Source: a virus. From it: 45,566 nt of DNA. This document shows positions 20,440 to 39,442 of the stretch, piece by piece. The position numbers were made by a program, and so were the translations under genes. Within the stretch, counting starts at the first letter, position 1. Every line of letters starts with the position of its first letter. The notes beneath the pieces were generated by a model. The model did not search any database. It was not told the DNA's origin and saw only the letters and a list, made by a program, of their open reading frames with translations. The stretch covers positions 1-45,566 of the IMG/VR virus record IMGVR_UViG_3300021440_000040, one strand, 5' to 3'.

Positions 20440-20452
20440 ATGTTCTCGGCTC

Positions 20453-20506: not shown

Positions 20507-20520
20507 ACTGAGGAATAAAA

Positions 20521-23389: not shown

Positions 23390-23391
23390 CT

Positions 23392-24207: not shown

Positions 24208-24208
24208 T

Positions 24209-24955: not shown

Positions 24956-25019
24956 TGGTTCGTCGCAAGTAATTCACTCGGTGGGATGCGCATACCAGAA
25001 AACGCATAAGGAAGTGTCT

Positions 25020-25334
25020 ATGAAATTTAAAAAAACACTTACAGAAAAAGATATAGTAGCAATCCCTTACGGGGCTTTACCGTGCAGCCTTGTAACGTTT
25101 ACGATTAAAGGAAAAGAGTCTAATGTGTCATATTTTGTAGAAATGGTACGAGATGACTGTCCTCCTCAGTGTAGTGGATATGACTGCCACAATATGCACG
25201 CCGAATCACTAGCACTAGACGTCGTTAGAGAAAGAATTAAGACTATACATAAACTAACTGACGAAGACATATTACTGATACAGCAAAAATTAGAAGACAT
25301 TCTCAGAGTGGGCGACTGCGGATGGTGTGTATAG
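25020..25334 (+). CDS. Cysteine-rich hypothetical protein
   Basis: 104 residues from ATG 25020 (SD AAGGAAG). It contains DDCPPQCSGYDCHNMH (about residues 47-62) and a final GDCGWCV, a possible metal site. The remainder is mixed alpha/beta. No family recognised. Confidence 0.55.
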   Translation: MKFKKTLTEKDIVAIPYGALPCSLVTFTIKGKESNVSYFVEMVRDDCPPQCSGYDCHNMHAESLALDVVRERIKTIHKLTDEDILLIQQKLEDILRVGDCGWCV

Positions 25335-25367
25335 TCTATATATTCTACGGAAATAAATGGAGGAATC

Positions 25368-25877: not shown

Positions 25878-26488
25878 TTGAACATTTGGAACTAAAAAAT
25901 CTTGTATGCGGAGTGGGGAATCAACTTCGCTATGTTGATAGATTTTCGACTTGCCGTCGGAATCGTAATGAAAATGTTGCAGAGCACCAGTATTTTACAG
26001 CATTTTTTACACTGGTTATCTGCCAACACCTAAAAGATGTCGTCATTAATTCGGGAGAAGCTGTAACCCGCGCCCTCCTCCATGATGTCGAAGAGCATTA
26101 CACCGGAGATATCGTACGCCCGGTAAAGCATGGATCCAGGTCTTTAAAAAATGCGATGGAAAAAGCAGGGAAGCAATTCACCCATAAATTCTTCTCCTCA
26201 CTGACGACGTCTGTCCCTGTTCAAGACTGGATGACGAGGCAGTGGGAGCTGGCAAAGGACACAAGCAGGGAGGGCCGCGTCGTTCGATTCGCCGACTACT
26301 TGTCGGTGCTGGCTTATCTTCACCAGGAAGTCGCCTCTGGAAATAAACTGGTCATGGAAAACGTGAGCCAGCTAGAGATATATGCCAAGACGTTCGACGA
26401 CCCGTCGTTTCAATTCATAAGGCCCCTGGTAGTCTTATCTGTCAAAATAATCCAGGAGATTTATCGTGACGCGCGATCTCAAGGTTAG
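25874..26488 (+). CDS. HD-domain deoxynucleotide phosphohydrolase (YfbR/DatZ-like)
   Basis: 204 residues from ATG 25874, in an ATGA overlap with the deoxyribosyltransferase. The metal set is RFSTCRRNRNENVAEH (His38), ALLHDVEEHYTGDIVRPVK (His70-Asp71, Glu74) and VRFADYL (about Asp145). YfbR dephosphorylates dNMPs, and related DatZ enzymes destroy dATP in phages with modified adenine. No PurZ is present here, so a YfbR-like role in reshaping the dNTP pool is the cautious call. Confidence 0.78.
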   Translation: MIEHLELKNLVCGVGNQLRYVDRFSTCRRNRNENVAEHQYFTAFFTLVICQHLKDVVINSGEAVTRALLHDVEEHYTGDIVRPVKHGSRSLKNAMEKAGKQFTHKFFSSLTTSVPVQDWMTRQWELAKDTSREGRVVRFADYLSVLAYLHQEVASGNKLVMENVSQLEIYAKTFDDPSFQFIRPLVVLSVKIIQEIYRDARSQG

Positions 26489-26771
26489 AAAAGAGAGATC
26501 GCGTCGCTATGGAGATCACACTGAGGGATGCACCAACCTGGGGATGATTTGGACAGGGATTCTGCAGCTTTACTACGGGATCAAGCTGGACCATCCAATC
26601 CCAGCAAATATAGTAGAGCTCATGATGTCGGGCAGTAAGCTTGGAAGAGCCGCGCTCGATCCCTCAGGAAAAGATCACTACACTGATGGAAGAGTGTATC
26701 TTTCGTTAGCTGAGGAGTCTGCGGAACGAACAATTAAGGGTGGCGTGAAGCTCAAAAAAGAAGTAGCCTAA
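26466..26771 (+). CDS. DUF6378-like small protein
   Basis: 101 residues from GTG 26466 (SD CAGGAGA). The sequence YGDHTEGCTNLGMIWTGIL, then a helix bundle with GRAALDPSGKDHYTDGRVYLSLA, matches a small all-helical family common in phages (DUF6378-like, related to MazG-type folds). A second domain of this type is fused to a phosphoribosyltransferase at 32339. No enzymatic role is established to my knowledge. Confidence 0.65.
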   Translation: MTRDLKVRKERSRRYGDHTEGCTNLGMIWTGILQLYYGIKLDHPIPANIVELMMSGSKLGRAALDPSGKDHYTDGRVYLSLAEESAERTIKGGVKLKKEVA

Positions 26772-26795
26772 ATTCAAATACAAGGAGATGTAAAA

Positions 26796-27716
26796 ATGAC
26801 ACATGAAAATGGTAGTCCGAAAGTAACCCTCCTCAGCTGGACTCAGTCCCCGGTAGAAACGATCTACAGGATTTGGGAGTCGAGCCGAGGGCAAAGATCC
26901 TTGAACGAGATCGACAAGGACATTTATCTTGGAAACCCTCGTGTCTATGAAATCTTCAAACAGGTGATCGATTCGAAGCTTCCTGTTTCTGAGAATTTGA
27001 GCTTTGTGTTCCTCCTGGAAAATGTGTCGATCAGTTTCCGGGAGCAAATGGTTCGCCACCGCATCGGTGTGAAGGCAGGGCCGCTTTTAGGAATTGACAT
27101 GATTCCTGACCTGGCGGACAGCACCTGGTGGTCACAGACCATGCGCGTTTTGGACATGGGAGCCTTTGCCGACGAGAAGCGCTATCGCGTCCCGGACGGA
27201 CTTACTCCAGAGCAAGAGGATGAATTCCACGTGGCGATGAAAGTGTCTCAAGATGCCTACAATCGTCTGGTGAAAGCAGGGATTCCGAATCAAGAAGCCC
27301 GTGAAGTCATTCCCCTAGGGGCCACCCATCGGATTACGTGGAGCTTGAATTTGTCAGCTCTCCAGCATATCGTTGGTAAGAGGGGCTGTCAAATTGCACA
27401 GCTTGGATTGTGGCGTCCCGTGATTGAGGGGATGGTAGACGAAATGTCCTCCAAAGTCCATGAGTATTTCAGGACGCTTATTTCCCCTCCTTGCATGAAG
27501 GGGGATAAATACACAGGCTGTCTTTTCAAAATTGAAAATGACAGGCGCATCGACGGAACGGATCAGTACCCTCCGTGTACTCTGTGTGTTGGACAAGATC
27601 ATGACAACCGTACAGAGGCCGTCCCGGCGAATCAACGCGTCGCATTCATGGAATCCTTTCACCGCTACAGAGCGTTGTGGCAACGCGACCCGCTGACAGG
27701 AGAAAGACTTAAATGA
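26796..27716 (+). CDS. ThyX-like flavin-dependent thymidylate synthase (divergent)
   Basis: 306 residues, with SD CAAGGAG. The fold signature is FREQMVRHRIGVKAGPLLG (81-99) with the RHR of ThyX, and THRITWSLNLSALQHIV...KRGCQIAQLGLW for the second motif. The usual RHRxxSxNxxSxR is broken: the serines and arginine appear as STWWSQTMR about 20 residues later (109-117). A C-terminal Cys group (CMKGDKYTGC, PPCTLC) is extra. It probably makes dTMP or a related modified dUMP. It is coupled to the polymerase by ATGA. Confidence 0.72.
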   Translation: MTHENGSPKVTLLSWTQSPVETIYRIWESSRGQRSLNEIDKDIYLGNPRVYEIFKQVIDSKLPVSENLSFVFLLENVSISFREQMVRHRIGVKAGPLLGIDMIPDLADSTWWSQTMRVLDMGAFADEKRYRVPDGLTPEQEDEFHVAMKVSQDAYNRLVKAGIPNQEAREVIPLGATHRITWSLNLSALQHIVGKRGCQIAQLGLWRPVIEGMVDEMSSKVHEYFRTLISPPCMKGDKYTGCLFKIENDRRIDGTDQYPPCTLCVGQDHDNRTEAVPANQRVAFMESFHRYRALWQRDPLTGERLK

Positions 27717-29650
27717 TCCCGAAGGGAAAGGTCATAGCTCTCGATACGGAAACGACAGGATTATTTCCTTACGGTGAATTCGGTGCACGTGCATTCGCCG
27801 TGTCGTTCTGCAACGAGGAAGGGGATACCGGACTGATGCAATGGCCCGTCGATCCTTTTACCAGAATGCCGAAACCTCGTGAAGAGGACTTACGGGAGCT
27901 TCGACGTTTCTGCTCGGATAAAAAAATAACGAAGGTGTTCTTTAACGCAAAATTTGACATCCGGATGCTCAAGTTTTGGGGGGCCGAAGTCCTTGGGAGA
28001 GTTGAGGATGTATTCTTCATGGCTAAAATCCTGAGAGCCAATGAACCTTCTCACGGACTGAAGCCCCTGGCTAAAAAATATCTCGGCATGACGGACGAGG
28101 ATCAAAAAGAGCTGCAGCAGTCGGTTTTGAAGGGCCGTCGCCTGGGAAAAAAGAACGGATGGAAAATCGCGGAGAAAGGGGACGACACCAAAAATCCTGC
28201 AGCGGCGGATTACTGGTTGGCGGATCCCGCTCTCTTGAAAAAATACGCGGTGCAGGATGCAGAACGCACCATGCTCTTGTATCGAATCCTGAACGAGGAG
28301 CTGGATACAGCGGAGGCTTATCGCAAGTTCTACGAGCGCGAATTAGTGCTCCTGGGAGTGACGATGCGGATGGAAGATTATGGAGTGCGCATTCGTCCAA
28401 GCGTCGTGCAGGAAGAAATAAAAAAGAACACAGCACTCATGGAAGACAGGCTCAAGAAGATTCAAGAGCTGACGCGTCCTTATTATTGCACAGCGAAAAC
28501 GGAGAAGAAGAAACGAGAACAGGAGCGGGATTTTTATTTCAATCCGAATTCAACGAGTCAAGTGGTCGATTTCGTGTACAAAAAATTAGAATTCCCCATC
28601 ATGAAATACACGGATACGGGAAATCCTGCCGTCGACCTGGAAGCACTGAAAGACATGGAGCATCCTGTCATTCATTATCTCCAAGAATACAAGGCGTCGG
28701 AAAAAGCGATAGCCTCTTTTTTCCAGAAATACGCATCTCTGTCTGTCCCGGACGACGAAGGGCACATGATTCTTCATCCGAGCTTTAATCAAATCGGGCC
28801 GATAACGGGGCGGTATTCGTGTAGTAACCCTAACCTTCAGAACGTAGCCAACGCAACTTCAGTGCGTGCTGTTGCGCCTATACAGGCCAGGACACCGTTC
28901 TGCCCACGCATGGGCAAGGAGTGGTATTGTTTTGACTACGACAGCCAAGAAGCCTGGCTGTTCGCTGCCGGGGCACATGAAGATGTGATGCTTGACTCTC
29001 TTTTGAACGGGAAAGACCTACACACAGAAACGGCTGAATTTATCTGGGGAAAAGAACAGGTGGCGCATGAATTCGCGACCGTTGGAAAAAAGAAGAGTCT
29101 CAGTCGTATCCGTTCCAAAATGCTCCTTTACGGAATTATCTATGGAATGGGGATCAAGAAAACGGCCGCAGTGTTGGGATGCTCTTCTGCTGAAGCGGAG
29201 AGCACGCTGAACAGATACTACACTCGCTTCCCTCGTATCAAAACTTTCATGGATGTGACAAGTACAAAGGCCGCGAGGCTCGGATATGTGGAAACAGCCT
29301 GGGGGCGCAGAATCCAAGTAGAATCGGACTGGGCTTATCGCGCCGTGAATTATTACGTCCAAGGGTCTGCAGCCGACATGCTGAAGGACGCGATGATAAG
29401 TGTGGACAGGTTATTTCAAGGACTCAGAATAGACGCCCATGTACTCATGACTGTGCACGACGAATTAATCGTAGAAATAGCAAAGAAGGACGTGACACAA
29501 AAGCTCCTAAATGACGTAAAAAGTCGCATGGAAAGTCACGGGGGAAACCTTCCCGCGATCCCAAAGATCCCTTGCGGCATGGCGCGTGTTATTAAGTCCT
29601 GGAATTTACAAGAAAAAGTCGACCTTTCGCTACTTCCTAAAGGAGGATAG
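27713..29650 (+). CDS. DNA polymerase I (family A) with 3'-5' exonuclease
   Basis: 645 residues. Exonuclease motifs: ALDTETTGL (Asp11, Glu13), FFNAKFDIRML (about 77-86) and YAVQDAERT (Asp182). Polymerase: motif A FDYDSQEAW (Asp408, Glu413; unlike the usual DYSQIELR), motif B SRIRSKMLLYGIIYG (Arg465, Lys469, Tyr473, Tyr477), motif C TVHDELIVE (His582-Glu584). Tyr473 aligns with E. coli Phe762, a state associated with virulent phages and fast synthesis. There is no 5'-3' exonuclease domain. This is the replicative enzyme, next to the primase-helicase. Confidence 0.93.
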   Translation: MIPKGKVIALDTETTGLFPYGEFGARAFAVSFCNEEGDTGLMQWPVDPFTRMPKPREEDLRELRRFCSDKKITKVFFNAKFDIRMLKFWGAEVLGRVEDVFFMAKILRANEPSHGLKPLAKKYLGMTDEDQKELQQSVLKGRRLGKKNGWKIAEKGDDTKNPAAADYWLADPALLKKYAVQDAERTMLLYRILNEELDTAEAYRKFYERELVLLGVTMRMEDYGVRIRPSVVQEEIKKNTALMEDRLKKIQELTRPYYCTAKTEKKKREQERDFYFNPNSTSQVVDFVYKKLEFPIMKYTDTGNPAVDLEALKDMEHPVIHYLQEYKASEKAIASFFQKYASLSVPDDEGHMILHPSFNQIGPITGRYSCSNPNLQNVANATSVRAVAPIQARTPFCPRMGKEWYCFDYDSQEAWLFAAGAHEDVMLDSLLNGKDLHTETAEFIWGKEQVAHEFATVGKKKSLSRIRSKMLLYGIIYGMGIKKTAAVLGCSSAEAESTLNRYYTRFPRIKTFMDVTSTKAARLGYVETAWGRRIQVESDWAYRAVNYYVQGSAADMLKDAMISVDRLFQGLRIDAHVLMTVHDELIVEIAKKDVTQKLLNDVKSRMESHGGNLPAIPKIPCGMARVIKSWNLQEKVDLSLLPKGG

Positions 29651-29860
29651 ATGGTGCGCAAAGTACATTTGATCCAGAAAATATGCAGCACAGCTCATGT
29701 GGAAAGAGTAAAAAAAGACTATCCGAATTTAACGTTTGAAGAATTAATCGCACTGATGAGCTGGCTGAATTTAATGTCGGATATCAAACAGTGCGTCGAG
29801 TCTACCTTCTCAAGGGAGAATTTCAATAATGAATCGTCCGACAAAAAAAGAGCAAATTGA
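29651..29860 (+). CDS. Small hypothetical protein between polymerase and primase
   Basis: 69 residues with SD AAAGGAGG. All helical (DYPNLTFEELIALMSWLNLMSDIKQC at about residues 24-48). It overlaps the primase gene start by 32 bases. No family recognised; the position suggests a replication accessory role. Confidence 0.55.
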   Translation: MVRKVHLIQKICSTAHVERVKKDYPNLTFEELIALMSWLNLMSDIKQCVESTFSRENFNNESSDKKRAN

Positions 29861-31964
29861 CAACTTGAACGGATTCAGGCAACACGGCGTGAATTTAGAC
29901 AGGGAAGCTTCGGGACAAATGGTAGGAGATTGTCCATTCTGTGCAAAAGAGGGTCATTTTTATGTCAATAAAGAAACAAAGTTATGGGATTGTAAACGCT
30001 GTGGTGAGCGAGGAAATTTTGAAGACTTCTTATCGGCTGTTGCCCAAGGATACAGCGAGGGACTTACTGAAGAACGTTTACGTGCACTGGCCGACGATCG
30101 TGGGCTACCTGTTGGAGCGTTTCGAAATCTTGGAATCGGATGGACAGGAAATCGATATTCGATTCCTGTTCAGAATAACAAGGGGCGAACTTTGGACATC
30201 AGACTTTATCGTCCTGGAGGGAAGCTGCTGTCTACCCCAACTGCGACGACGGGACTGTTTAACCTCCGGGATTTGGTGCTGGAGGAGCGCAAGAAGGAGC
30301 GAGTATACATTTGCGAGGGGGAATGGGACACAATTGCCTGGAGATGGCTTTTGTTGCATCTCGACGAGCCAGGGGTCGTGGTTGGTGTGCCTGGCGCCAA
30401 CACTTTCAAGGGGTTCTGGGTTCCTTTCTTCGAGGGACGGGACGTCGTCATCCTTTACGACAACGATGCCGCAGGTCGTTCAGGAGAACTCATCGTTCGA
30501 GCCAAGCTTTCAGGAACTACAAAAAGCATACGCTACTTACACTGGCCAGCTATCGGACTTGATGAAGGCTATGACATACGAGACCATGTCAAGAAAGTCG
30601 CCCTCCTTGAGAACCATCCACCTCAAGCGTTTGAGCAGATTACTGACTGGCTTAAAAATAGCCCAAGGGAGGGAGCACTTGAAGGAGGAGCTTCTGGGTC
30701 GCGGTCATCTAACGGAGAGGTTATCGGGGAGATCACCGAATCCTACGAACCGATCACGACGAAAGAGCTGATCGCTGATTACAAAAAATGGCTCCACATG
30801 AAGTCCGACGATGCACTGAAAGTCATGTACGGTGCGATCCTTGCGAATAAAATGGGAGGGGATCCGCTATGGCTTTTTCTTGTTGCACCTCCAGGAGGTA
30901 TGAAGTCGGAACTGCTGATGTCGCTTTCGAAGGGAGAAGGCGTTCACGCCCTGTCTTCTTTAACGCCGCACACGCTTATATCTGGAGCCACGTGGAAGGA
31001 AGGTCAGGATCCTTCACTTTTGCCCAAGCTCAACAACAAGATCTTGATCGTAAAGGATTTCACAACCCTTCTAACGCTCCATCACTCGGTGCGTGATGAA
31101 ATCTTTGGAACGCTTCGAGACGTTTACGACGGCAATACGGAGAAAATATTCGGGAACGGAGTGCGTCGTAAGTACGAGAGTAGCTTTGGAATTCTGGCAG
31201 GTGTAACGCCGGCTATTGAGGCCTTCAATACCATCCACGCAGGACTTGGGGAACGCTTCCTGAAATTCAGACTGTGCGGGAATTGGGATCAGGACTCTGA
31301 AGAAGCAAAGATCATGAGGGCCTTAAACAATATCGGACGCGAAGGGCAAATGCGGAATGAACTGACCAAAATCGGATGCCGATGGCTTGCAAACATGAAG
31401 CTCCCTGAAATCTTTCCAGAGCTCACCCACGACCGCAAGCTGATGCTCGTGCATTTGGCGAAATGGGCAGCTCGGTTACGCGGCGTGGTTGAACGCGACC
31501 GCTTTAGTGGAACGGTTATGTACAAGCCTTCCAGTGAAGTCGGGACGCGGCTTGCAAAGCAACTGGCTAAGTTGGGCCAGGGGATTGCCATGTTCCTGGA
31601 GAAGAAGGCTGTGGACGACGAAGTCTATGAGTTGGTTAGGCGTGTGGCCCTGGACACCGTGCCGGACCGCGTAGAAGACATCGTGCACGCGCTATGGGAC
31701 GCTACAGGAGGGGATGAAGGGACATGCTCGACGACAGACATCGTCATCAAGACACGCCTTCCACAAGCCACCGTGTTTCGATGCTTGCAGGACATGAACC
31801 TTTTGAAGCTGGTAGAAAATATGTCAGCTAAAGGAGTGGCGGCATGGAGGTTGTCAGCGAAGCTTACGGAGCACATTAAAATAGGAGGTGTGTATGTCGG
31901 AAAAACCAAAGCCGTCAAAAAAGGATTATCCATTCGATCTGTCAAAAAAACCGCCAATCGTTGA
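29829..31964 (+). CDS. Primase-helicase (zinc finger, Toprim, ATPase, winged helix)
   Basis: 711 residues. Zinc ribbon: CPFC and CKRC (Cys35, 38, 55, 58). Toprim: YICEGEWDT (Glu163) and LYDNDAAG (Asp211, Asp213). ATPase: Walker A APPGGMKSE (353-361) and Walker B KILIVKDF (404-411). C-terminal winged-helix-like segment TTDIVIKTRLPQATVFRCLQ near 640-665. It is preceded by a flexible Gly/Ser linker at 280-300. It would lay primers and unwind DNA for the family A polymerase. The helicase domain is not the T7 DnaB type but resembles archaeo-eukaryotic-plasmid AAA-type modules. Confidence 0.88.
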   Translation: MNRPTKKEQIDNLNGFRQHGVNLDREASGQMVGDCPFCAKEGHFYVNKETKLWDCKRCGERGNFEDFLSAVAQGYSEGLTEERLRALADDRGLPVGAFRNLGIGWTGNRYSIPVQNNKGRTLDIRLYRPGGKLLSTPTATTGLFNLRDLVLEERKKERVYICEGEWDTIAWRWLLLHLDEPGVVVGVPGANTFKGFWVPFFEGRDVVILYDNDAAGRSGELIVRAKLSGTTKSIRYLHWPAIGLDEGYDIRDHVKKVALLENHPPQAFEQITDWLKNSPREGALEGGASGSRSSNGEVIGEITESYEPITTKELIADYKKWLHMKSDDALKVMYGAILANKMGGDPLWLFLVAPPGGMKSELLMSLSKGEGVHALSSLTPHTLISGATWKEGQDPSLLPKLNNKILIVKDFTTLLTLHHSVRDEIFGTLRDVYDGNTEKIFGNGVRRKYESSFGILAGVTPAIEAFNTIHAGLGERFLKFRLCGNWDQDSEEAKIMRALNNIGREGQMRNELTKIGCRWLANMKLPEIFPELTHDRKLMLVHLAKWAARLRGVVERDRFSGTVMYKPSSEVGTRLAKQLAKLGQGIAMFLEKKAVDDEVYELVRRVALDTVPDRVEDIVHALWDATGGDEGTCSTTDIVIKTRLPQATVFRCLQDMNLLKLVENMSAKGVAAWRLSAKLTEHIKIGGVYVGKTKAVKKGLSIRSVKKTANR

Positions 31965-32115
31965 ATGGATCGATAAGAATAATTTGGCGGATTATCATCC
32001 CACTAGCGACCTAAGAATGAACGGGGAAGTCCTGGAACAGAAGTGGGCAGTTTCAAAATTTGAGTATAACGTTCGGTGGATTCCAATTCGTAAAAAACGG
32101 AGGGACGAGAAATGA
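31894..32115 (+). CDS. Small basic hypothetical protein
   Basis: 73 residues from ATG 31894, with a strong SD (TAGGAGGTG); it overlaps the primase gene end by 71 bases. Lys- and Pro-rich start (KPKPSKKDYPFDLSKKPP), aromatic middle, basic end (PIRKKRRDEK). Unknown function. Confidence 0.55.
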   Translation: MSEKPKPSKKDYPFDLSKKPPIVEWIDKNNLADYHPTSDLRMNGEVLEQKWAVSKFEYNVRWIPIRKKRRDEK

Positions 32116-32342
32116 AATTATTCAAAGCGTTGCTGCTGGTGTGTGTTTGTGTCGTGCCTGTTCGGGCTGATCTGATGTCGATGATCGCGGCCAGTGAAGC
32201 CTCGGACGCGTCGAGCGCAGCAAAGAAATCCGAGAAGGTCCAACTCGAAATCAAAAAAGCCTTGGACGAGAACACGAGGCTGTTACAAAAACTCTCGAAA
32301 GATCTCGAGAAATTGATCGCGAAAATGGAGGCAGACAAATGA
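32112..32342 (+). CDS. Signal-peptide coiled-coil protein
   Basis: 76 residues, ATGA overlap. Residues 1-19 (MKLFKALLLVCVCVVPVRA) form a clean Sec signal peptide ending in the cleavage motif VRA. The mature 57 residues are one amphipathic helix (VQLEIKKALDENTRLLQKLS, KDLEKLIAKME), probably a periplasmic coiled coil. An exported early protein suggests an envelope task such as exclusion of other phages. Confidence 0.62.
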   Translation: MKLFKALLLVCVCVVPVRADLMSMIAASEASDASSAAKKSEKVQLEIKKALDENTRLLQKLSKDLEKLIAKMEADK

Positions 32343-33019
32343 GCGGCGAAATCGGAAACATCCTTGAAGAGCGGGGCAAGCGTTACGGCCCTTTTGAAGG
32401 ACACGCCTACATCACCCAGGAGTTGAAGCTGAAGATGGCGGCCAATCCTGGCTGGCTGAAACTCAACCCGTCCATGAAAGAGTCGCTCGAGATGATCGCC
32501 CACAAAATCGGACGAATCCTCAACGGTGACCCGTTCTACGACGACAGCTGGAAGGACATTGCTGGCTACGCGGAACTGGTGGCGAAGCAGCTAATGACGG
32601 AGAAGCTGGACAAGGTGGACACCCGCGCCTTCGGGAAGACAACGATCCGACGAGTCTCCTGGGCTGAAGTCGGGGTTCGGTTGGAAGCCTTGCGGGAGAT
32701 GCTCCCGAACAAACACGACAACCACCCTCTTCAGAAGGTCAAGCTTTACGGGATCCCTAGAGGCGGGGCGATTGTGGTGGGAATCGCCGCCAACAAATGG
32801 CCGGTTTGGTTCGAGGCAACGGAGGATAAAAACAAGGCCGACATCATGGTCGATGACATCCTCGACACCGGTGAAACGAAAGCCCAGACGGTCGGCAGTT
32901 CGTGCTGTCCGTTCTTCGCATTGGTAGACAAGCAAAGAGAGCGGATCCCGGAGGCCGAGTGGATTTTCTTCCCCTGGGAAGATCCGAAAGAACTCCCGGA
33001 GCATCTCCGTGGCGCTTAA
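32339..33019 (+). CDS. DUF6378-like domain fused to a phosphoribosyltransferase-like domain
   Basis: 226 residues, ATGA overlap. Residues 1-90 are a DUF6378-like helical domain (ILEERGKRYGPFEGHA, MKESLEMIAHKIGRILNG, DSWKDIAGYAELV). Residues 130-226 carry a type I phosphoribosyltransferase pattern: KLYGIPRGGAIVVG (135-148) and ADIMVDDILDTGET (167-180), the PRPP-binding loop. Possible roles are base salvage or making a modified nucleotide. The fused domains suggest both act on the same pool. DNA here is more GC-rich than the following genes. Confidence 0.76.
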   Translation: MSGEIGNILEERGKRYGPFEGHAYITQELKLKMAANPGWLKLNPSMKESLEMIAHKIGRILNGDPFYDDSWKDIAGYAELVAKQLMTEKLDKVDTRAFGKTTIRRVSWAEVGVRLEALREMLPNKHDNHPLQKVKLYGIPRGGAIVVGIAANKWPVWFEATEDKNKADIMVDDILDTGETKAQTVGSSCCPFFALVDKQRERIPEAEWIFFPWEDPKELPEHLRGA

Positions 33020-33230
33020 GATTCGGCGGGAGGAGCCGGACACCACGTGGGCACCCGTCGTAGTCCATCATGACATCACTAGGGCACACATACTGAGTAC
33101 AAAGTATAAAGGAATAAGTACCCCGCTGTTCAACGAAAAGCTCGAAATACCTAACGGGGCAAAGTGGGTTCATGTCCAAATTACCGGAGGAACCATTACG
33201 TATACCTTCAGAAAAACGAGGCCGTTTTAG
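33009..33230 (+). CDS. Small beta-rich hypothetical protein
   Basis: 73 residues from GTG 33009, overlapping the previous gene by 11 bases (SD CCGGAG). Mostly beta: WAPVVVHHDITRAHILSTKY, KWVHVQITGGTITYTFRK. No family recognised. Confidence 0.5.
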   Translation: MALKIRREEPDTTWAPVVVHHDITRAHILSTKYKGISTPLFNEKLEIPNGAKWVHVQITGGTITYTFRKTRPF

Positions 33231-33263
33231 TAGAAGTATATCACTGACGTAAAGGGAGACACA

Positions 33264-33485
33264 ATGGTGATGGTTATTGGCAAAAAGAAAAAGGCTTCAA
33301 AAGTCGTGTGCTTGGTTGTGAAAGGGGCTGTTCGGAAGATCATTAAGGATGCTGGCCTTCGGACGGGAGGGGATTTTGTTGAAGCCCTTTCCGAGAAGGT
33401 TCGCAACTTGATTGATGCGGCCGTCCAGTCGACCAAAGAGAACGGGAAGAAAATGACCCTCGGTGCGGAAGACATTCAGCAGTAA
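33264..33485 (+). CDS. Single-histone-fold protein (bacterial/phage histone)
   Basis: 73 residues from ATG 33264 (SD AAAGGGAG). After a basic head (GKKKKASK) the sequence follows the histone fold: helix 1 VVKGAVRKIIKDAG (18-31), loop LRTGGD, long helix 2 FVEALSEKVRNLIDAAVQST (38-57), loop KENGKKMTL, start of helix 3 GAEDIQQ. The loop 2 pattern NGKK(M)TLxxEDI is a strong histone mark (compare single-fold bacterial histones such as Bdellovibrio Bd0055). Helix 3 is short, as in those proteins. It probably binds phage or host DNA. No HU/IHF features are seen. Confidence 0.75.
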   Translation: MVMVIGKKKKASKVVCLVVKGAVRKIIKDAGLRTGGDFVEALSEKVRNLIDAAVQSTKENGKKMTLGAEDIQQ

Positions 33486-33489
33486 ATAA

Positions 33490-33554
33490 AGCTTTCCAGG
33501 GATACTCTCTGTAGCTTGGGAGGGGACACGGGGCTGCAGGGAGTCCCTGGAGCT
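33490..33554 (+). ncRNA. Long RNA hairpin after the histone gene
   Basis: 33495-33515 pairs with 33533-33551 in a 19-bp stem with two G-U pairs and a two-base bulge (33503-33504). The arms can extend past it as AGC (33490-33492) with GCT (33552-33554). The loop is 17 bases (33516-33532). There is no T-run, and it ends about 20 bases before the next ATG. It may be a processing site, a regulator of the gene downstream, or a small structured RNA. Confidence 0.5.
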
Positions 33555-33574
33555 TATTAAAAGGAGACTACAAA

Positions 33575-33763
33575 ATGGATAAGAAATGTGAAATTCTGGC
33601 AACACACAAGTTGATGGGGGCGAACAAGAAGGAGATATTCGCTTGCCCGATTCACAAGGACGAATTTGTTCTGCTGAATAAGCTGAAAGGGCTGAGCTCA
33701 GAATTGACTCCGCTGACAAAGGCGGAGCTGAAGACTGAAGTGGAATGCTCCAAGGTAATTTAA
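33575..33763 (+). CDS. Small hypothetical protein
   Basis: 62 residues with SD AAAGGAGA. It contains CEILATHK and FACPIHKDEF, which could form a small zinc site (Cys/His), and a Lys/Leu-rich end. Unknown function; the long hairpin upstream may control it. Confidence 0.55.
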   Translation: MDKKCEILATHKLMGANKKEIFACPIHKDEFVLLNKLKGLSSELTPLTKAELKTEVECSKVI

Positions 33764-33774
33764 AGGGGTCGATT

Positions 33775-33896
33775 ATGCCAGAAATAATCGTGAGCTAGAA
33801 AAGAAAAGCACTAAGGGAATATGCGAGGGCTGCACTGACTGGACTAATCGCGGGTGGTGGTGGAATGGGAGTGAACGAGAAGTCTATCCGTGCTAA
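33775..33896 (+). pseudogene. Possible frameshifted tiny Cys-containing gene
   Basis: ATG 33775 has a good SD (AAAGGGG) but reaches a stop after 7 codons. Shifted by -1, the frame reads on as NNRELEKKSTKGICEGC and continues TDWTNRGWWWNGSE...VYPC to a stop at 33894-33896, a plausible zinc-binding mini-protein (CEGC...C). A single-base change or assembly error would restore about 40 residues. Confidence 0.35.
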
Positions 33897-33963
33897 GGCC
33901 TTCACAATAGCACTTGAGACGATAGAAGGCGAAATTGCAATATCATTTCCTGAGGAGCACTAG
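33865..33963 (+). CDS. Possible 32-residue peptide
   Basis: ATG 33865 to TAG 33963, overlapping the broken frame above. MGVNEKSIRAKAFTIALE, then an acidic end (FPEEH). The SD is poor (GGTGGTGG). Listed because it ends just before the next start and fills the gap; it may be spurious. Confidence 0.3.
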   Translation: MGVNEKSIRAKAFTIALETIEGEIAISFPEEH

Positions 33964-33965
33964 AC

Positions 33966-34076
33966 ATGAAACGAAAATTGATTAAAGGTCACTGGCGCAT
34001 CAAGAAAAATGGTTTGCGTTTTCGAGTCAAAGGACACTACAGAGGTAATTATCGTATTAAAGGAGCTGTGAAATGA
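33966..34076 (+). CDS. 36-residue basic repeat peptide
   Basis: ATG 33966, SD GAGGAGCA 11 bases before, stop overlapping the next ATG. The peptide has an internal near-repeat, IKGHWRIKKNG and VKGHYRGNYRIKG, and is strongly basic (pI clearly high). Could bind nucleic acid. Too short for family assignment. Confidence 0.5.
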   Translation: MKRKLIKGHWRIKKNGLRFRVKGHYRGNYRIKGAVK

Positions 34077-34255
34077 GAAAGCTTATTGCAACGCTGGAGC
34101 GCATTGGTGGGGAGCTGAAAGTGGTGAGGAAGGAGCTGGAGCAACGGAAGGCAGGGTATCCAGATATGTATAAGGCCATCAATGCCGCCAGAGATACGTG
34201 CTTGGTGGCTTCGAAAGAGCTGGAGAATTCTGTGAAGAAGGTTGGAGTGAAATGA
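34073..34255 (+). CDS. 60-residue helical hypothetical protein
   Basis: It starts in an ATGA overlap with SD AAAGGAG. Coiled-coil-like (LIATLERIGGELKVVRKELE) then a second helix. Unknown function; part of a tightly packed series of tiny genes. Confidence 0.5.
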   Translation: MRKLIATLERIGGELKVVRKELEQRKAGYPDMYKAINAARDTCLVASKELENSVKKVGVK

Positions 34256-34428
34256 AAAAGAAAAAGTGTATATGGATCCTCACACACATTTATAAACTTG
34301 AAAACTGGTGGAAGGAATGGTGGGATACGTCTTGTGGATGCTCAGTCCAGCAAGAGTGGCATCAGTATAAAATCGTTAAAACATATGCCTTCTGTCCATT
34401 TTGCGGGAAGCCTTTGGAGGTAAAATAA
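34252..34428 (+). CDS. 58-residue zinc-ribbon-like protein
   Basis: ATG 34252, ATGA overlap. It has a Trp-rich middle (NWWKEWWDTSCGCS) and a C-terminal CPFCGKPL, giving two Cys pairs (CGC and CPFC), a zinc-ribbon pattern. Unknown target. Confidence 0.55.
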   Translation: MKKKKCIWILTHIYKLENWWKEWWDTSCGCSVQQEWHQYKIVKTYAFCPFCGKPLEVK

Positions 34429-34637
34429 TGAAAAAGAGAAAGATTTCCATTACACCTAAAGGGGTTGGGATTTATTTCCAGTTGGAGAATGGAGTTTTTG
34501 TTGTCCGATCAAACAACGAAGACGATTTTTTCGTCTCAGATTATTTGAAAGACACGATCACGAACGCTTTTAATTTTGGTGTAGAGATAGGGATAAAGAG
34601 GCAGCAAGAAATTATGCGCGATACGATGGGGGATTGA
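34428..34637 (+). CDS. 69-residue hypothetical protein
   Basis: ATG 34428 is preceded by TTTGGAGG. The start is beta-like (RKISITPKGVGIYFQLENGV) and the end helical (AFNFGVEIGIKRQQEIMRD). No family recognised. Confidence 0.5.
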   Translation: MKKRKISITPKGVGIYFQLENGVFVVRSNNEDDFFVSDYLKDTITNAFNFGVEIGIKRQQEIMRDTMGD

Positions 34638-34638
34638 G

Positions 34639-34923
34639 ATGAAAGACGAAAACTGGAGGTCGCGAGCAGTAGAACTCGAAGGCGATAAACGGAAGCTCTT
34701 AGAAAAGATCGCCGCCCTCGAAAAGGAGAAGGCGGAGGCGGTTCTTGCGGAGATGGAGCGGTGTGCGAAGATCGTCGATGAATGGGCTACGAGATATCCG
34801 GTGGACATATTTGGAGATCCTCCTAAAGGTTTTCATGGAGCAACGACGGATGCCTGTTCCGCGAAAGCACTGCGGACGATCCTTCCCAATGTGGCCGCCG
34901 CCATCCGCGAAGGGAGGGATTGA
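34639..34923 (+). CDS. Coiled-coil hypothetical protein
   Basis: 94 residues. A charged coiled coil covers residues 8-45 (GDKRKLLEKIAALEKEKAEA). Then ERCAKIVDEWA and SAKALRTILPNVAAAIREG form a pattern common to many small phage proteins of unknown role. Confidence 0.55.
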   Translation: MKDENWRSRAVELEGDKRKLLEKIAALEKEKAEAVLAEMERCAKIVDEWATRYPVDIFGDPPKGFHGATTDACSAKALRTILPNVAAAIREGRD

Positions 34924-34925
34924 AG

Positions 34926-35231
34926 ATGTGCGAAAAACTAAGGCTGCTTAATTCTGTTTGTAAGTGCGGGCTGACGGTTCGATTCAATGAAAACCGGAAT
35001 ATGTATCAGTCGGTCGATGAGTATATTCAAAATAACGCAAACGTTGGCCTAGAGGTCGATCCTGAAATAGCGAAAAAAATCATCGAGACAGACTCCATCG
35101 TTGAGCTTCATTTTTATCCACAAACGCCAGTCGGATTTTATCACATAACCCATTACAATCTCGACATGGCCATCGACGAGGCAATGGAAATAAATGAGAT
35201 AAAGTTTTTACTGAAAGGAGCCACCAAATGA
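34926..35231 (+). CDS. Hypothetical protein with N-terminal Cys pair
   Basis: 101 residues from ATG 34926 (SD GGGAGGG). CEKLRLLNSVCKCG at the start, a helix (DPEIAKKIIETD), and a beta segment IVELHFYPQTPVGFYHITHY resembling small domains that follow host-takeover proteins. Function unknown; stop overlaps the next ATG. Confidence 0.5.
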   Translation: MCEKLRLLNSVCKCGLTVRFNENRNMYQSVDEYIQNNANVGLEVDPEIAKKIIETDSIVELHFYPQTPVGFYHITHYNLDMAIDEAMEINEIKFLLKGATK

Positions 35232-35641
35232 TCAAGGATGAGACGAAGGAAGGATTTGGGAAGAAATGCCGGAACTGTGGCTCGGAGAATCTAACATGGA
35301 ACTGCATTTCTTTGAACCTTGGTGGTGTTCAAGATGGTCGTATTTGTATGAGGGAGACTTCCGGCGCGCTTGTCCTCGGTTGTGAAGAATGCTCAGAGAC
35401 GTTGAAAATTCTTTATGAGGGTGAGGCCGGAAAATTAGTCAATCGTTCCCTGCGCAAGGAGGCCCTGTGCGAGAGAATGGCGGAGGCGTTGAAAGCTGTC
35501 GAGTGGATCGAGTGGGAATACGACGATAGGTGCGACACAATATGTGCCTGGTGCAATGGTAGCCAAAGTCGTGGTGAAGGACATAAAGCGGGTTGTGTGA
35601 GGCAAAAAGTTCTGGCCGACTACGCCAAGGAGGGCTTATGA
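35228..35641 (+). CDS. Double Cys-pair protein
   Basis: 137 residues, SD AAAGGAGCC. A first zinc ribbon is likely from CRNCGSENL (14-22) with GCEEC (about 51-55). A second Cys group, CDTICAWCNGSQSRGEGHKAGC (near residue 103-124), is typical of small phage proteins with a CxxxCxxC...H...C site. Possibly a nucleic-acid- or protein-binding adaptor. Confidence 0.55.
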   Translation: MIKDETKEGFGKKCRNCGSENLTWNCISLNLGGVQDGRICMRETSGALVLGCEECSETLKILYEGEAGKLVNRSLRKEALCERMAEALKAVEWIEWEYDDRCDTICAWCNGSQSRGEGHKAGCVRQKVLADYAKEGL

Positions 35642-35922
35642 TCAAGCCGTTTGCGAGGATCGAAGAAACGAAAGATGACAAGCGTTGGGGATCGAAAACT
35701 CTCCTAGTGGGCGGTGTGCAATTCGATAATAGATTTTCGTCGGAATCAGACGAATTTCAAGATATGTGCGACGTGTTAAACGCCGCCCACCGCGCCGAGG
35801 TTCGGAAGGAGCTGGAGGCGTTTAAAAAAGAGCTATCTGAAAAATCGGCAAAGTTTTCACTTGGCGGAGGGACAATAAAAGATTGGGCACGTAAACCAAT
35901 GGAAGTTTCTATATATATATAA
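35638..35922 (+). CDS. Hypothetical protein
   Basis: 94 residues from ATG 35638, SD AAGGAGGG, ATGA overlap. Beta start (KTLLVGGVQFDNRFSSES) then a helix with EFQDMCDVLNAAHRAEVRKELEAF (residues about 39-62), a pattern frequent in small phage genes. Function unknown. Confidence 0.5.
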   Translation: MIKPFARIEETKDDKRWGSKTLLVGGVQFDNRFSSESDEFQDMCDVLNAAHRAEVRKELEAFKKELSEKSAKFSLGGGTIKDWARKPMEVSIYI

Positions 35923-35965
35923 AAAATTTCGACATCGACGCATTCATGGAGAGGGAGGAAAAGAA

Positions 35966-36136
35966 ATGAACTGGTTCTCATGGTTGTTTTTGTCTTTGAC
36001 AGTATGTGATGTGATGGTGAGGATTTTAATCGTCGGAAAACAACGAGAACCAATAACTTCCGGTGATGCCGCTTTCAATATTCTTGTGAACGGCCTTCTG
36101 ACATGGGGTGTTTGCTATTTCGGGATGCGGCCATGA
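35966..36136 (+). CDS. Small membrane protein
   Basis: 56 residues from ATG 35966 (SD GGGAGGAA). Two hydrophobic spans, WFSWLFLSLTVCDVMVRILIV (residues 3-23, quoted in part) and ILVNGLLTWGVCYFG (about 38-53), with a short polar link. Unknown function; an early membrane protein could act in exclusion. Confidence 0.5.
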   Translation: MNWFSWLFLSLTVCDVMVRILIVGKQREPITSGDAAFNILVNGLLTWGVCYFGMRP

Positions 36137-36312
36137 CCCCGCCCAAAGGATACAGGCTTGTGAAGAGCGGAACCGTAAAAAAGGGAGACTTGACATCACA
36201 TCTCGGCGTATCCTGGATTCAAGTATTCAGAAGTATAGGGAGTCCGATCTTTAGCTATCCATACTGTCCATATTACGCCCGTAAGATCACGAAGAGGGGG
36301 AAGAGGAAATGA
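36133..36312 (+). CDS. 59-residue hypothetical protein
   Basis: ATG 36133, ATGA overlap. PPKGYRLVKSGTVKKGDLTS resembles the small phage motif PxGYRxlxxGExxxxGD, found in many short proteins of unknown function. The end is basic (RKITKRGKRK). Confidence 0.5.
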   Translation: MTPPKGYRLVKSGTVKKGDLTSHLGVSWIQVFRSIGSPIFSYPYCPYYARKITKRGKRK

Positions 36313-36356
36313 GAATATGGATATCCTGGTTTAATTTATTCAGGAAAGAGATATAA
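36309..36356 (+). CDS. Possible 15-residue leader peptide
   Basis: ATG 36309 overlaps the previous stop and ends right before ATG 36357. MRIWISWFNLFRKEI is a short amphipathic peptide, perhaps only a translational coupler. Confidence 0.3.
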   Translation: MRIWISWFNLFRKEI

Positions 36357-36587
36357 ATGTTACTTCATTTAACTGGCTATAAGGATCAATCTAAGAAAAG
36401 AAATAACGCCGGATATAGGAAGTGTTTGAATGGTTTTTACCAGAATAATGACGCCGTGCTCCGGAAATCGATTGTGTGTTTGGGGTTGGGAAGGGTTCTG
36501 GAGGGGTGTAAATACTACGAAAAATGCTTGGCCAATCGAAAGGCTGAATTAGGTAAAAGGGCTGAGTTGAAAAGTTCAAAAGGCTAA
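36357..36587 (+). CDS. Last early gene, Cys-containing hypothetical protein
   Basis: 76 residues, weak SD (AGGAAAGAG). Basic with four cysteines, YRKCLNGFY, SIVCLGLG, EGCKYYEKC; a zinc or Fe-S site is possible. It is the final gene before boundary locus 2. Confidence 0.5.
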   Translation: MLLHLTGYKDQSKKRNNAGYRKCLNGFYQNNDAVLRKSIVCLGLGRVLEGCKYYEKCLANRKAELGKRAELKSSKG

Positions 36588-36618
36588 ATGACGCGATATA
36601 TGGGGGTGAAATAGACCC

Positions 36619-36671
36619 CTAAATCGTGAGCAGAATGAGGGTGTTCCGTCGAGAGGATCGTTGTTAATTCC
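36619..36671 (-). repeat. Repeat element C (minus orientation)
   Basis: On the minus strand: GGAATTAACAACG, then CGACGGA closing the 27-base block, 19 variable bases, GATTTAG followed by GGGTCTATTT. Same spacing as A, B and D. Confidence 0.85.
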
Positions 36672-36717
36672 CCTCCTTACGGGAGTGAAGGGTGTGGTGT
36701 GTTTTTCTTTTTTTTTT
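36669..36717 (+). terminator. Terminator-like hairpin and T-tract ending the early operon
   Basis: CTCC (36673-36676) pairs with GGAG (36682-36685), with further flanking CCC/GGG pairing. After a GT-rich spacer come T runs at 36702-36706 and 36708-36717. The spacer is longer than usual, so efficiency is uncertain. Confidence 0.4.
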
Positions 36718-36723
36718 ACTATC

Positions 36724-36752
36724 TATTCGCTTAACCTAATATTTTTTTTATT
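36724..36752 (-). repeat. 29-bp core of boundary locus 2
   Basis: This is the exact reverse complement of 18177-18205. It reads TATTCGCTTAACCTAATA followed by T-rich sequence on the plus strand. Confidence 0.95.
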
Positions 36753-36790
36753 AAAGAGAACAAACAGTACCCTTAACACCCCATTAGACG

Positions 36791-36843
36791 GGAATAACCA
36801 ACAACTTTCTCGACGGAAGAGTGCAGAATAAAGCAGGATTTAG
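36791..36843 (+). repeat. Repeat element D (plus orientation)
   Basis: GGAATAACCAACAAC at 36791, CGACGGA ending at 36817, 19 variable bases, GATTTAG at 36837-36843, then CGGTTCATT. The SD of the first late gene begins 18 bases later. Confidence 0.8.
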
Positions 36844-36873
36844 CGGTTCATTTTGGTTTTGGGAGGATATGTG

Positions 36874-37116
36874 ATGAAAAAAAGAAAAGTTATTAGTTCA
36901 AAAAGACAACGCGTGAAAGTGCTTGGAAAAAGATTACTACGTGGGCTGAGGAATAAAGAAGTATGGGCTGAGAAGTATGTGAAGAAAAAAAGAGTGGGCG
37001 AAGAGACTTTGAAAAGATGGGCTGCGGGAAAGTATAGAGTTCCTTCCGAAGCCGCCGCGAAAAAAAGTAGAGAAGAGTTTGGGATGTCGATATGGAAGCG
37101 GAGAGGATTATTATGA
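36874..37116 (+). CDS. Basic helix-turn-helix-like protein, first late gene
   Basis: 80 residues from ATG 36874 (GGGAGG 7 bases upstream). Very basic start (MKKRKVISSKRQRVK), then VGEETLKRWAAGKYRVPSEA and AAKKSREEFGMSIWKRRG, which resembles a Xre/Cro recognition helix and the following helices. As the first gene after locus 2 it could regulate late transcription or act in packaging. Low similarity makes this tentative. Confidence 0.5.
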   Translation: MKKRKVISSKRQRVKVLGKRLLRGLRNKEVWAEKYVKKKRVGEETLKRWAAGKYRVPSEAAAKKSREEFGMSIWKRRGLL

Positions 37117-37466
37117 AAATGGATTATACTAAATTTTTATTTAAGTACAGATCAGTCGCTGGCGCTATTGGTGTACCAGAAATATATCTACGGAGGCGTA
37201 TGAAGTGTTGTGGACTGAAAATGATTATGTACAAAGGGGCCGTATGCCTCCCAAAAGCGCAGGTTACAGATGCGGTTTACCGGCTCGTGCGATCAAAATC
37301 GAGTGTTTTACGCGCAATAACGCTTTTGTTGAGTCATAATGAGTGCAGAACCATAGCCTATTCCCTAGCACCACACGAAAGGAGGGTCGTCCGTCATGCA
37401 AAAGAAACTTCCAGGAAAGCCGTTTGTGAAAGGCGACCCGCGCTGCTGGCGCAAGGGAGTAAGTAA
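37113..37466 (+). CDS. Hypothetical protein upstream of the terminase genes
   Basis: 117 residues from ATG 37113 (ATGA overlap, SD GGAGAGG). FLFKYRSVAGAIGVPEIYLR suggests an HTH-like N-terminus; then MYKGAVCLPKAQVTDAVYRL. Its last 71 bases overlap the next gene, so the C-terminus (about residues 94-117) may be less constrained. Possibly a DNA-recognition protein for packaging or regulation. Confidence 0.5.
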   Translation: MKMDYTKFLFKYRSVAGAIGVPEIYLRRRMKCCGLKMIMYKGAVCLPKAQVTDAVYRLVRSKSSVLRAITLLLSHNECRTIAYSLAPHERRVVRHAKETSRKAVCERRPALLAQGSK

Positions 37467-37902
37467 CCCAGGAATATCTGGTCGCCCCTCGGAGATCCAT
37501 CGTGCCGAGTGTCGAAAACTTTTTGAGAAGGGAAAGTTCAGAGAGTTTTTATCTGGAGCCGCGAAAGGCGAAGCCGTTGATGTGTTTGTCCAGATCAACG
37601 GAAAGACCAAGAAGATCCCCACGAATTTCGGAAACAAACTCAAAGCTATCGCGTGGCTCGGTGAGCAAGGCTACGGACGTGCCCCCGTCGAAGTCAGTCA
37701 TTCTGTTTCGGACGAGGCCCTCGAAAAGTTTGAAAGACTTCTCGTCACTTCTCTCAATACTCATTTCCCGAAGATGTGCCCACACTGCAAGACCGCCTTA
37801 AAAATGCCACCCCAATTCGTACAGGACTTGATGGAGCTGTCCAAAGTCTTCGAACGAGAAGAGGAGGCTGCCGTTGAAACCACAGCCGTCACACAAGAAT
37901 AA
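37396..37902 (+). CDS. Terminase small subunit-like protein
   Basis: 168 residues with SD AAAGGAGGG. GKPFVKGDPRCWRKGVSNPG and ISGRPSE (residues 6-33) match the Gly/Pro/Arg-rich opening of DUF5681-type proteins that precede terminase large subunits. A helical middle and a CPHC motif (about residue 130) follow. It overlaps the large subunit gene by 29 bases. It would recognise phage DNA for packaging. Confidence 0.65.
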   Translation: MQKKLPGKPFVKGDPRCWRKGVSNPGISGRPSEIHRAECRKLFEKGKFREFLSGAAKGEAVDVFVQINGKTKKIPTNFGNKLKAIAWLGEQGYGRAPVEVSHSVSDEALEKFERLLVTSLNTHFPKMCPHCKTALKMPPQFVQDLMELSKVFEREEEAAVETTAVTQE

Positions 37903-39442
37903 ATCCGACGGTCGTCGTGTGGCGGAAGTCATCCGCCGCGTGGCCCAAGGACTTATTCCGAATGAGATGAGCTTGCGCGATTTCGTTTTAAAGTCTTGGC
38001 ACATCATCGAACCTGCGACGCCCCTCGAATTAAATTGGCACCACGAACTGATCATCGAATACCTCGAGCTGGCCTTCAAACGAGACATCAAACGTCTTGT
38101 GTTCAATGTCCCCCCTCGTACACTTAAGTCCATTTTCACTTCTGTCGACTTTCCCGCGTGGGGATGGACACGTGCTCCGTGGAGCCGATGGATCTGTACT
38201 TCATACTCCCAGAATTTGGCGACGGAGTTTAGCGTGAAGCGCCGACGCATCATCCAGGATCCATGGTATCAGGATAAATGGGGCGCGCAAGTCAAGCTGG
38301 CGGGGGATCAGAATTTGAAGACGGAGTTTGAGAATACGCAGACGGGCAAGATGCAAAGTACTTCGACGGGTGGTACGACGACAGGAAAAGGTGGAGACTA
38401 CATCGTCATGGACGATCCACAGGATCCTCGTATGGCGGAGAGCGAAGCGGAACGGAAGAGCACGAATGAGTTCTATTCGAACACGCTCATTTCTCGGTTG
38501 AACAATAAAAAAACAGACGTGATGATCCTCGTTCAACAACGTCTCCATGCGGAGGACACCACGTCCCTCGTTTTGAAGGAGCAAGGATGGACACACGTCG
38601 ATGTCCCGATTCTTGCCAGCAAGCGACGCACGTATTCTTTTCCGCTCTCCAATACGAAGAAGGTTTTTAAAGAAGGCGAATACCTTCAACCCCAGAGGGA
38701 AGGGCCTGAGGAATGTGCGAAGCTGCTAAAGGGGATGGGAAGCCGAACGTTCGACGCTCAGTATCTCCAAGCGCCTACGTCGGAGACGGGTAATATCATC
38801 AAACGCCATTACTGGAACTACTACACGTCCCTCCCTCCTAAATTTGATTTTGTGTTGCAGTCGTGGGACATGACGTTCAAGGATACGAGTGGCTCGTCGT
38901 TCGTGAGTGGACAGGTGTGGGCGATGCTTGGTTCGAAGAAGTATTTACTCGACGAAGTTCACGCCCAACTAAATTATCCTGACTCCAAACGCGCGATGCT
39001 TGGGTTGTGTGCTAAATGGCCGTCCACACAAGCCGTTCTCGTGGAAGATAAAGCCAACGGCCCTGCCATCATTGCGGACTTGCGCGGGACGATTGCTGCG
39101 ATGATTCCTGTCACACCCTTGGGCGACAAGGTCGTGCGTGCGGTAGCCGTTACGCCTACGATTGAAGCTGGTGATTGCTACTTACCCGCTCCTGCCATTG
39201 CGCCGTGGGTTACTGAGTATGTGAATGAGATGTCCGCTTTCCCTGAAGCAAAACTGAAGGATCGTGTGGACGCGATGAGCCAAGCGTTGTCGCGTATGAA
39301 TGACTTGGGGAAGCTTTTGGACGAGGCTCGTGAAGCCCAAGCGTCGAACGACGAAGGTCACGATCCGGTCACTGAAGAGATGGGCATCTCTAGCCTGATG
39401 AATTCAGAAACGGAGGTATTCGCCAGTGCTGGATCTTTTTAA
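37874..39442 (+). CDS. Terminase large subunit
   Basis: 522 residues from TTG 37874, supported by GAGGAGG 6 bases upstream. ATPase: Walker A-like VPPRTLKS (79-86) and Walker B GGDYIVMDDPQD (173-184). Nuclease: LQSWDMTFKDT (Asp332), VLVEDKANGPAI (Glu391, Asp392) and a late Asp in KDRVDAMSQAL. This is the packaging motor and headful or cos nuclease. The small subunit is directly upstream and the portal directly downstream, overlapping by 17 bases. Confidence 0.93.
   Translation: MKPQPSHKNKSDGRRVAEVIRRVAQGLIPNEMSLRDFVLKSWHIIEPATPLELNWHHELIIEYLELAFKRDIKRLVFNVPPRTLKSIFTSVDFPAWGWTRAPWSRWICTSYSQNLATEFSVKRRRIIQDPWYQDKWGAQVKLAGDQNLKTEFENTQTGKMQSTSTGGTTTGKGGDYIVMDDPQDPRMAESEAERKSTNEFYSNTLISRLNNKKTDVMILVQQRLHAEDTTSLVLKEQGWTHVDVPILASKRRTYSFPLSNTKKVFKEGEYLQPQREGPEECAKLLKGMGSRTFDAQYLQAPTSETGNIIKRHYWNYYTSLPPKFDFVLQSWDMTFKDTSGSSFVSGQVWAMLGSKKYLLDEVHAQLNYPDSKRAMLGLCAKWPSTQAVLVEDKANGPAIIADLRGTIAAMIPVTPLGDKVVRAVAVTPTIEAGDCYLPAPAIAPWVTEYVNEMSAFPEAKLKDRVDAMSQALSRMNDLGKLLDEAREAQASNDEGHDPVTEEMGISSLMNSETEVFASAGSF

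Follow-up and report, generated by a model that had tools for sequence, protein, structure and literature searches.

The open reading frame (ORF) at positions 33264-33485 of the phage DNA analysed here encodes what, by sequence and predicted fold, is a real single-fold histone, one that belongs with the short, alpha3-truncated histones and whose nearest cellular kin, in sequence comparisons, are the histones of Elusimicrobiota. The gene is likely a captured Elusimicrobiota-type histone, since its top matches, a TLG.ED motif, a longer loop and its placement in a tree all point that way. That a phage should carry a single-fold histone had been proposed in the original prediction and is borne out by the sequence, the predicted fold and conservation among related phages; the affinity to Elusimicrobiota, which we regard as the most informative clue, had been missed. 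The window, by which we mean the whole stretch of 45,566 nucleotides, is an IMG/VR virus record (G000 below) whose gene content includes terminase, portal, DNA polymerase, primase, Sak4-like, SSB-like, ThyX and amidase genes. Positions 6-131 are repeated at 45440-45565, giving 126 identical bp at both ends, and the capsid gene is split across the ends; because of this overlap G000 is probably a complete genome with a circular assembly, though its IMG/VR class is linear. Features of the histone gene and its surroundings are as follows.

29829-31964, plus strand: primase/helicase (phrog_47), upstream of the histone
32339-33019, plus strand: DUF6378-like gene, upstream of the histone also in the related phage G207
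33252-33258, plus strand: Shine-Dalgarno-like AAGGGAG, 5 bases 5' of the start codon, read from the sequence
33264-33485, plus strand: predicted single-fold alpha3-truncated histone gene, 73 aa, ATG to TAA
33264-33311, plus strand: lysine-rich N-terminal tail (KKKKASK), residues 1-16, modelled with low confidence
33321-33350, plus strand: helix alpha1, residues 20-29 (KGAVRKIIKD), AlphaFold2 model
33375-33443, plus strand: helix alpha2, residues 38-60, AlphaFold2 model
33441-33473, plus strand: loop 2, with clamp-like K63-x-T65-xxxx-D70 and Elusimicrobiota-type TLGAED
33465-33476, plus strand: truncated helix alpha3, residues 68-71, AlphaFold2 model
33489-33555, plus strand: strong RNA hairpin directly 3' of the histone stop (-40.6 kcal/mol, z -5.0)
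34073-34255, plus strand: 60-aa gene; in G207 its homologue comes after the histone
37874-39442, plus strand: terminase large subunit, a phage hallmark (phrog_38)

Sequence and predicted fold

As originally described, the 33264-33485 ORF contains the stretches RTGGDFVEALSEKV (residues 33-46), NGKKMTL (60-66) and AEDI (68-71), and the histone-fold layout read from them holds apart from the labelling of RTGGDFVEALSEKV as helix 2, which is slightly off because RTGG falls in loop 1 in the model. When the 73-residue protein was searched as a single sequence against the PDB with phmmer, all matches with E < 0.03 were histones, the best being HLp of Leptospira perolatii (9qt0, E=7.9e-6), followed by HBb of Bdellovibrio (8cmp and 8fvx, E 6e-4 to 7e-4) and archaeal HTkC (9f2c, E=0.023). 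A profile built from 80 cellular histones (the best 80 of 223 relatives) gave the ORF 59.8 bits and reported none of the other 440 window ORFs (441 in total, at least 30 aa each), and the best of 2000 shuffled versions of the protein reached 11.2 bits. The match to Pfam family PF00808 lies below the gathering score (18.0 vs 21.4 bits), and PHROGs and NCBIfam, searched with the same protein, returned no credible match. Reading 33264-33485 on the reverse strand runs into a stop inside the stretch.

The AlphaFold2 model, computed from a 46-row alignment and superseding one from 9 rows with a pLDDT of 69.8, has a mean pLDDT of 77, with the residue blocks between 21 and 60 at 83-91. It shows a helix-loop-helix-loop-short helix arrangement, for which the 'helix-strand-helix' of the original prediction was loose wording. 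A structure search with the predicted fold returned HLp (Z 7.7 and 7.5), HBb (7.3-7.5) and HTkC (6.8), values below 8 that by themselves can reflect a common arrangement but with which the sequence evidence concurs in this case; superpositions on these three gave rmsd values of 1.0-1.2 Å over 56-59 residues, and the next histone folds followed at Z ≤ 5.3. Foldseek gave TM scores of 0.71/0.90 against HLp. In the suggested comparison with Bd0055 (HBb), the predicted single chain superposed with an rmsd of 1.2 Å over 58-59 residues. DUF1931, also suggested, was the wrong comparison family: it is described in the accessible part of PMC12701072 as a double histone fold within one chain, and the phage protein has one fold in its 73 residues, which rules out a DUF1931 pseudodimer; nor was DUF1931 matched in a Pfam search up to E=10. 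The best BFVD matches were two uncharacterised proteins of uncultured Caudovirales, A0A6J5MS37 and A0A6J5QYV5 (E 0.003-0.005).

The assignment to the alpha3-truncated histones follows Schwab et al. (2024), the predicted model having the helix 3 of 3-4 residues, and the sequence the kinship with known members, by which that group is recognised. Within it, a face-to-face (FtF) histone was considered and rejected: HLp residues R49, N53 and R55 correspond to S56, N60 and K63, so that two are replaced and the asparagine is kept. The category published as 'phage histones' (Schwab 2024) was likewise ruled out, the protein ending two residues past helix 3. In the region of the RKTxxxD/RxTxxxD motif it reads K63-M-T65-xxxx-D70, with K replacing R, a substitution common to all nine Elusimicrobia rows of the 46-row alignment. 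The bacterial dimer histone category, defined by CLANS clustering, is characterised by the lack of both R48 and N52 of the FtF profile, positions at which the phage protein has S56 and N60; the phylum Elusimicrobiota, to which its nearest rows belong, is listed under this category in PMC11390915.

Taking the HLp alpha1/alpha2 dimer-core residues, like the FtF tetramer residues above, from the accessible text of PMC12701072, we find all six matching positions aliphatic (V23, I27, L42, V46, L49 and V54). The HBb residues that contact DNA, taken from the accessible text of PMC11317129, fall into two sets, those kept or conservatively replaced (K12 to R24, K16 to K28, T23 to T34 and T53 to T65) and those changed (T8 to K, S9 to G, K10 to A, N22 to R, S24 to G, K52 to M and R57 to E). 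Three of the changes, R33, G35 and E69, are the usual Elusimicrobiota state; in helix alpha1 the phage has KGA where other histones carry A/T-S-K, and loop 2 is one residue longer than in most of them. The tail is modelled with low confidence (pLDDT 49 over residues 1-10) and contributes most of the net charge, which is +6.5 for the whole protein (pI 9.9) and +1.8 from residue 17 on. From sequence and model together, the phage histone is expected to dimerise and to bind DNA through a surface whose contacts are in part remade.

Genomic setting and related phages

The histone gene sits among replication and small genes, outside the structural module. The phage had been called lytic, which it may be: the description is compatible with the absence of tyrosine integrases from G000 and nine other histone-bearing viral records and of integrases or repressors among the window proteins scanned against PHROGs. 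The hairpin after the histone stop suggests that transcription ends here or that the message is stable; in G207, too, a hairpin follows the histone gene at this position, with unrelated sequence. Such structures are not confined to the histone, since strong hairpins directly follow other window ORFs (18076-18165 and 20431-20520), and all three possibly mark transcript ends of the phage.

A terminase search found 17 related loci in 17 records, two of which, G001 and G207, have the histone. The one close relative among the 15 without it is G208 (75% terminase identity, a 26.8-kb fragment); the other histone-free relatives are distant (≤41% identity), and several are short fragments. G207, with 49,249 bases and a 101-bp overlap near its ends, has most structural and replication genes in common with the window. 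The G207 histone matches that of the window at 65% identity over 63 aa; its gene is flanked by homologues of 32339-33019 and 34073-34255, and the protein again has a basic tail, KG in helix 1 and the longer loop. Between the two histones dN is 0.32 and dS 1.64, giving a ratio of about 0.2; dS approaches saturation in this pair and has reached it in the comparison with G001. The G001 record (44,735 bases) shares most structural genes at 41-62% identity, while its replication genes are far more diverged (polymerase 26%, primase 32%, Sak4-like 33%); its histone, on the opposite strand, is 49% identical to that of the window and has thus outlasted the reshuffling of replication genes.

Other parts of the window differ in how they are shared. 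The small genes that fill 33486-36850 have next to no counterparts in G207: of 19 small plus-strand ORFs, one (34073-34255) has a match. The structural block includes an MptE-like protein and two family-2 glycosyltransferases (4177-5253, 6332-7132 and 42959-43714); G207 has counterparts of all three and G001 of the first two. In the replication region, an SNF2-type helicase gene (20521-21897) has a 66% identical counterpart in G207 and none in G001.

Stand-alone histones also occur in at least three further viral groups, on contigs whose viral nature is the IMG/VR assignment: L003 (63.9 kb), the 44-kb pair L004/L005, and L012-L015 (168-190 kb). Close pairs among them have dN/dS values of 0.05 (L004/L005) and 0.04 (L012/L013). 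The histones of L012 (5001-5177), L013, L014 and L015 have 59 aa and consist of the fold only. Four of ten neighbour proteins had PHROG matches (dCMP deaminase, ThyX, ParB-like and thymidylate kinase) and six had none. The phrog_2 terminase profile matched in one of ten records, a result that is uninformative because it also misses the window's own terminase. Scans of viral and genome contigs with the single 73-aa protein gave no relative; they under-count, because G207, later found via its terminase, was missed as well. Viral contigs queried with an Elusimicrobiota histone gave no relative, and INPHARED phages no match to the window histone or to HLp or HTkC fragments.

Affinity to Elusimicrobiota histones

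The cellular panel comprises the best 80 of 223 relatives from genome contigs, 10 from Elusimicrobia and 70 from elsewhere. When these and eight viral histones were compared with the window histone, the top 11 of the 88 matches were the 10 Elusimicrobia and phage L002; the other cellular rows among the best 80 are 29-43% identical. The motif TLG.ED is present in the window, in L002 and in 10/10 Elusimicrobia, and in 0/70 other cellular rows of this panel. A pattern-free search matched 48 of 198 Elusimicrobiota genomes (E up to 0.001), and in the 30 loci extracted, of 51 places listed, T[LIVM]G.ED occurs in 28 and both the longer loop and the SK of helix 1 in all; the best identity to the phage histone among the 30 is 62% over 55 aa. 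Conservation of SKVK in the 80-row panel is partly built in by the search pattern, but the pattern-free loci keep it in 30/30.

A tree of 66 rows and about 60 columns, which included 22 of the 70 non-Elusimicrobiota cellular rows, five of the 10 panel Elusimicrobia and the 30 extracted loci, joined the window histone to that of L002 (81/89, unstarred) and placed the two with Elusimicrobiota (100/76, unstarred), with L012-L015 adjoining this group (97/78, unstarred). The alternative topology in which the window groups with Elusimicrobiota without L002 was not rejected (p 0.29). At two Elusimicrobiota histone loci, L115 and L125, the neighbours looked cellular by eye. At L045, a locus of another kind, the histone closely resembles HBb of Bdellovibrio and the bin bears the title Streptomyces griseus; the contig is probably mis-binned or mislabelled.

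That Elusimicrobiota are also the present host we only infer. The terminase is not diagnostic of the host, since its matches in 20 of 198 Elusimicrobiota genomes (31-37%) are no better than those of unrelated phages, and the protein at 5413-6423 matched in 0/198 in a search that had no positive control. No DNA or spacer link was found between window positions 20001-40000 and the 198 genomes: there were 17 short matches (E 0.001-0.01 per genome), as by chance, and the one examined had no repeat array.

Possible roles and known systems

On balance we judge it probable, from sequence and model, that the gene is a captured Elusimicrobiota-type alpha3-truncated histone, kept by the phage, whose product would dimerise and bind DNA non-specifically as an architectural protein. 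The dimer, the DNA binding, the host, the timing and the in vivo role are what we infer. An ancestor of the phage would have acquired the gene from a histone-bearing bacterium, probably of the host lineage, and kept it since. Two chains would pair in the histone handshake, and the dimer would hold DNA by its backbone, using the beginning of helix 1, both loops and the lysine-rich tail, and would bend or coat it without sequence preference. Most likely it would serve the phage as an architectural protein of its own, acting on DNA that is replicating in the cell; an additional action on the host nucleoid is possible. The functions put forward in the original prediction, DNA compaction, silencing of host genes and protection from nucleases, are likewise candidates. 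Weighing against this reading are the changed HBb contact positions, the sub-threshold PF00808 match, the unstarred key branches of the trees of about 60 columns and the missing DNA or spacer link to Elusimicrobiota in the 20 kb searched.

A different and rather unlikely reading is that a captured copy of the chief chromatin protein of the host lineage lets the phage mimic the host histone: the copy would form mixed dimers with host histones through the conserved core and reprogram or dismantle host chromatin during infection. The changed helix-1 turn and added basic tail would alter the DNA grip of the mixed dimers, and host chromatin would be displaced or poisoned, so that host genes or defences are shut off or phage DNA that had been silenced is opened. 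In favour of this, the dimer core is conserved, the alpha1 turn that contacts DNA has GA (window) or GK (G207) in place of SK, and the protein is close to a bacterial lineage's own histones. H-NS offers parallels: in the available text of PMC7074111, plasmid and island homologues heterodimerise with chromosomal H-NS and can antagonise it, and in that of PMC3097231 a phage H-NS is proposed to repress host defence genes. Against this, the turn has its standard TSK form in G001; in the window the altered turn still carries two positive charges (K20 and R24), so that with the basic tail added DNA binding need not be weakened.

The gene's position outside the structural module speaks against the suggestion, improbable in our judgement, that the histone is packaged with phage DNA and condenses or protects it after entry, and the terminase motors of tailed phages package naked DNA. 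The model for this suggestion is the giant viruses, Marseillevirus histone doublets packaging viral DNA (cited in the accessible part of PMC11390915). Still more improbable is a functionless passenger, a host gene only recently captured; its rarity, with no match in PHROGs or INPHARED phages, would fit, but its presence in the same neighbourhood of G207 and in G001 and the dN/dS of about 0.2 against G207 disfavour this. That the ORF resembles histones by chance or is non-coding, as its shortness and sub-threshold Pfam match might suggest, is hardly credible: chance is ruled out by the profile, shuffle and PDB searches, to which the predicted-fold matches and dN/dS add, and a non-coding ORF is refuted by the G207 homologue, with its reading frame conserved and change mostly synonymous.

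The characterisation of bacterial histones as chromatin proteins is recent, a matter of the last few years, and the Elusimicrobiota kinship of this one suggests that phages can take over host chromatin-shaping proteins. It opens a direct route to asking whether histone chromatin in bacteria is manipulated by phages in the way that H-NS chromatin is by plasmids and phages; host-type histones kept in a phage lineage form a natural variant set for asking which contacts matter, and hint at which phages might have uncultured Elusimicrobiota as hosts. Were the mimic reading true, captures in several phage groups would amount to a contest over chromatin between histone-bearing bacteria and their phages.

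Alpha3 histones as such, their occurrence in Elusimicrobiota and a single phage category have already been published (PMC11390915). In the literature searched, we found no report of a stand-alone Elusimicrobiota-type phage histone, and a term search of the accessible text of PMC9145170 gave no mention of phages; within these bounds, what is new is such a histone conserved in a phage lineage. The histone H1-like proteins of large phages (PMC12619734, as far as accessible) are a different protein.

Elusimicrobiota alpha3 histones share with the phage protein the single fold, the T-L-G-x-E-D loop, the longer loop 2 and K in the clamp position, whereas the phage protein has a lysine-rich tail of 10-15 residues, GA for the SK of helix 1 and M at the position of HBb K52, and is phage-borne. 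HBb (Bd0055 of Bdellovibrio bacteriovorus, a bacterial dimer) has the same fold and likewise S at the HLp R49 position, but is 30-39% identical, with an R-K-T clamp, a T-S-K turn, no tail and a chromosomal gene. HLp (Leptospira perolatii, FtF) is the best PDB match by sequence and fold and differs in its tetramer residues R49 and R55, which are S56 and K63 here. The 'phage histones' of Schwab et al. (2024) also have a histone fold and lie in tailed-phage contigs; they carry a C-terminal helical tetramerisation domain and lack RxTxxxD (PMC11390915), whereas the window histone ends at helix 3 and has K-x-T-xxxx-D, and the range of phage histones is thus broader than the single published category. 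The H-NS of phage EPV1 has a fold unrelated to that of histones and is, like the window protein, a phage chromatin protein that most resembles a bacterial one; by the available portion of PMC3097231 it is closest to its host's own H-NS (47%), and by analogy it may serve as a precedent for a phage chromatin protein resembling that of the host.
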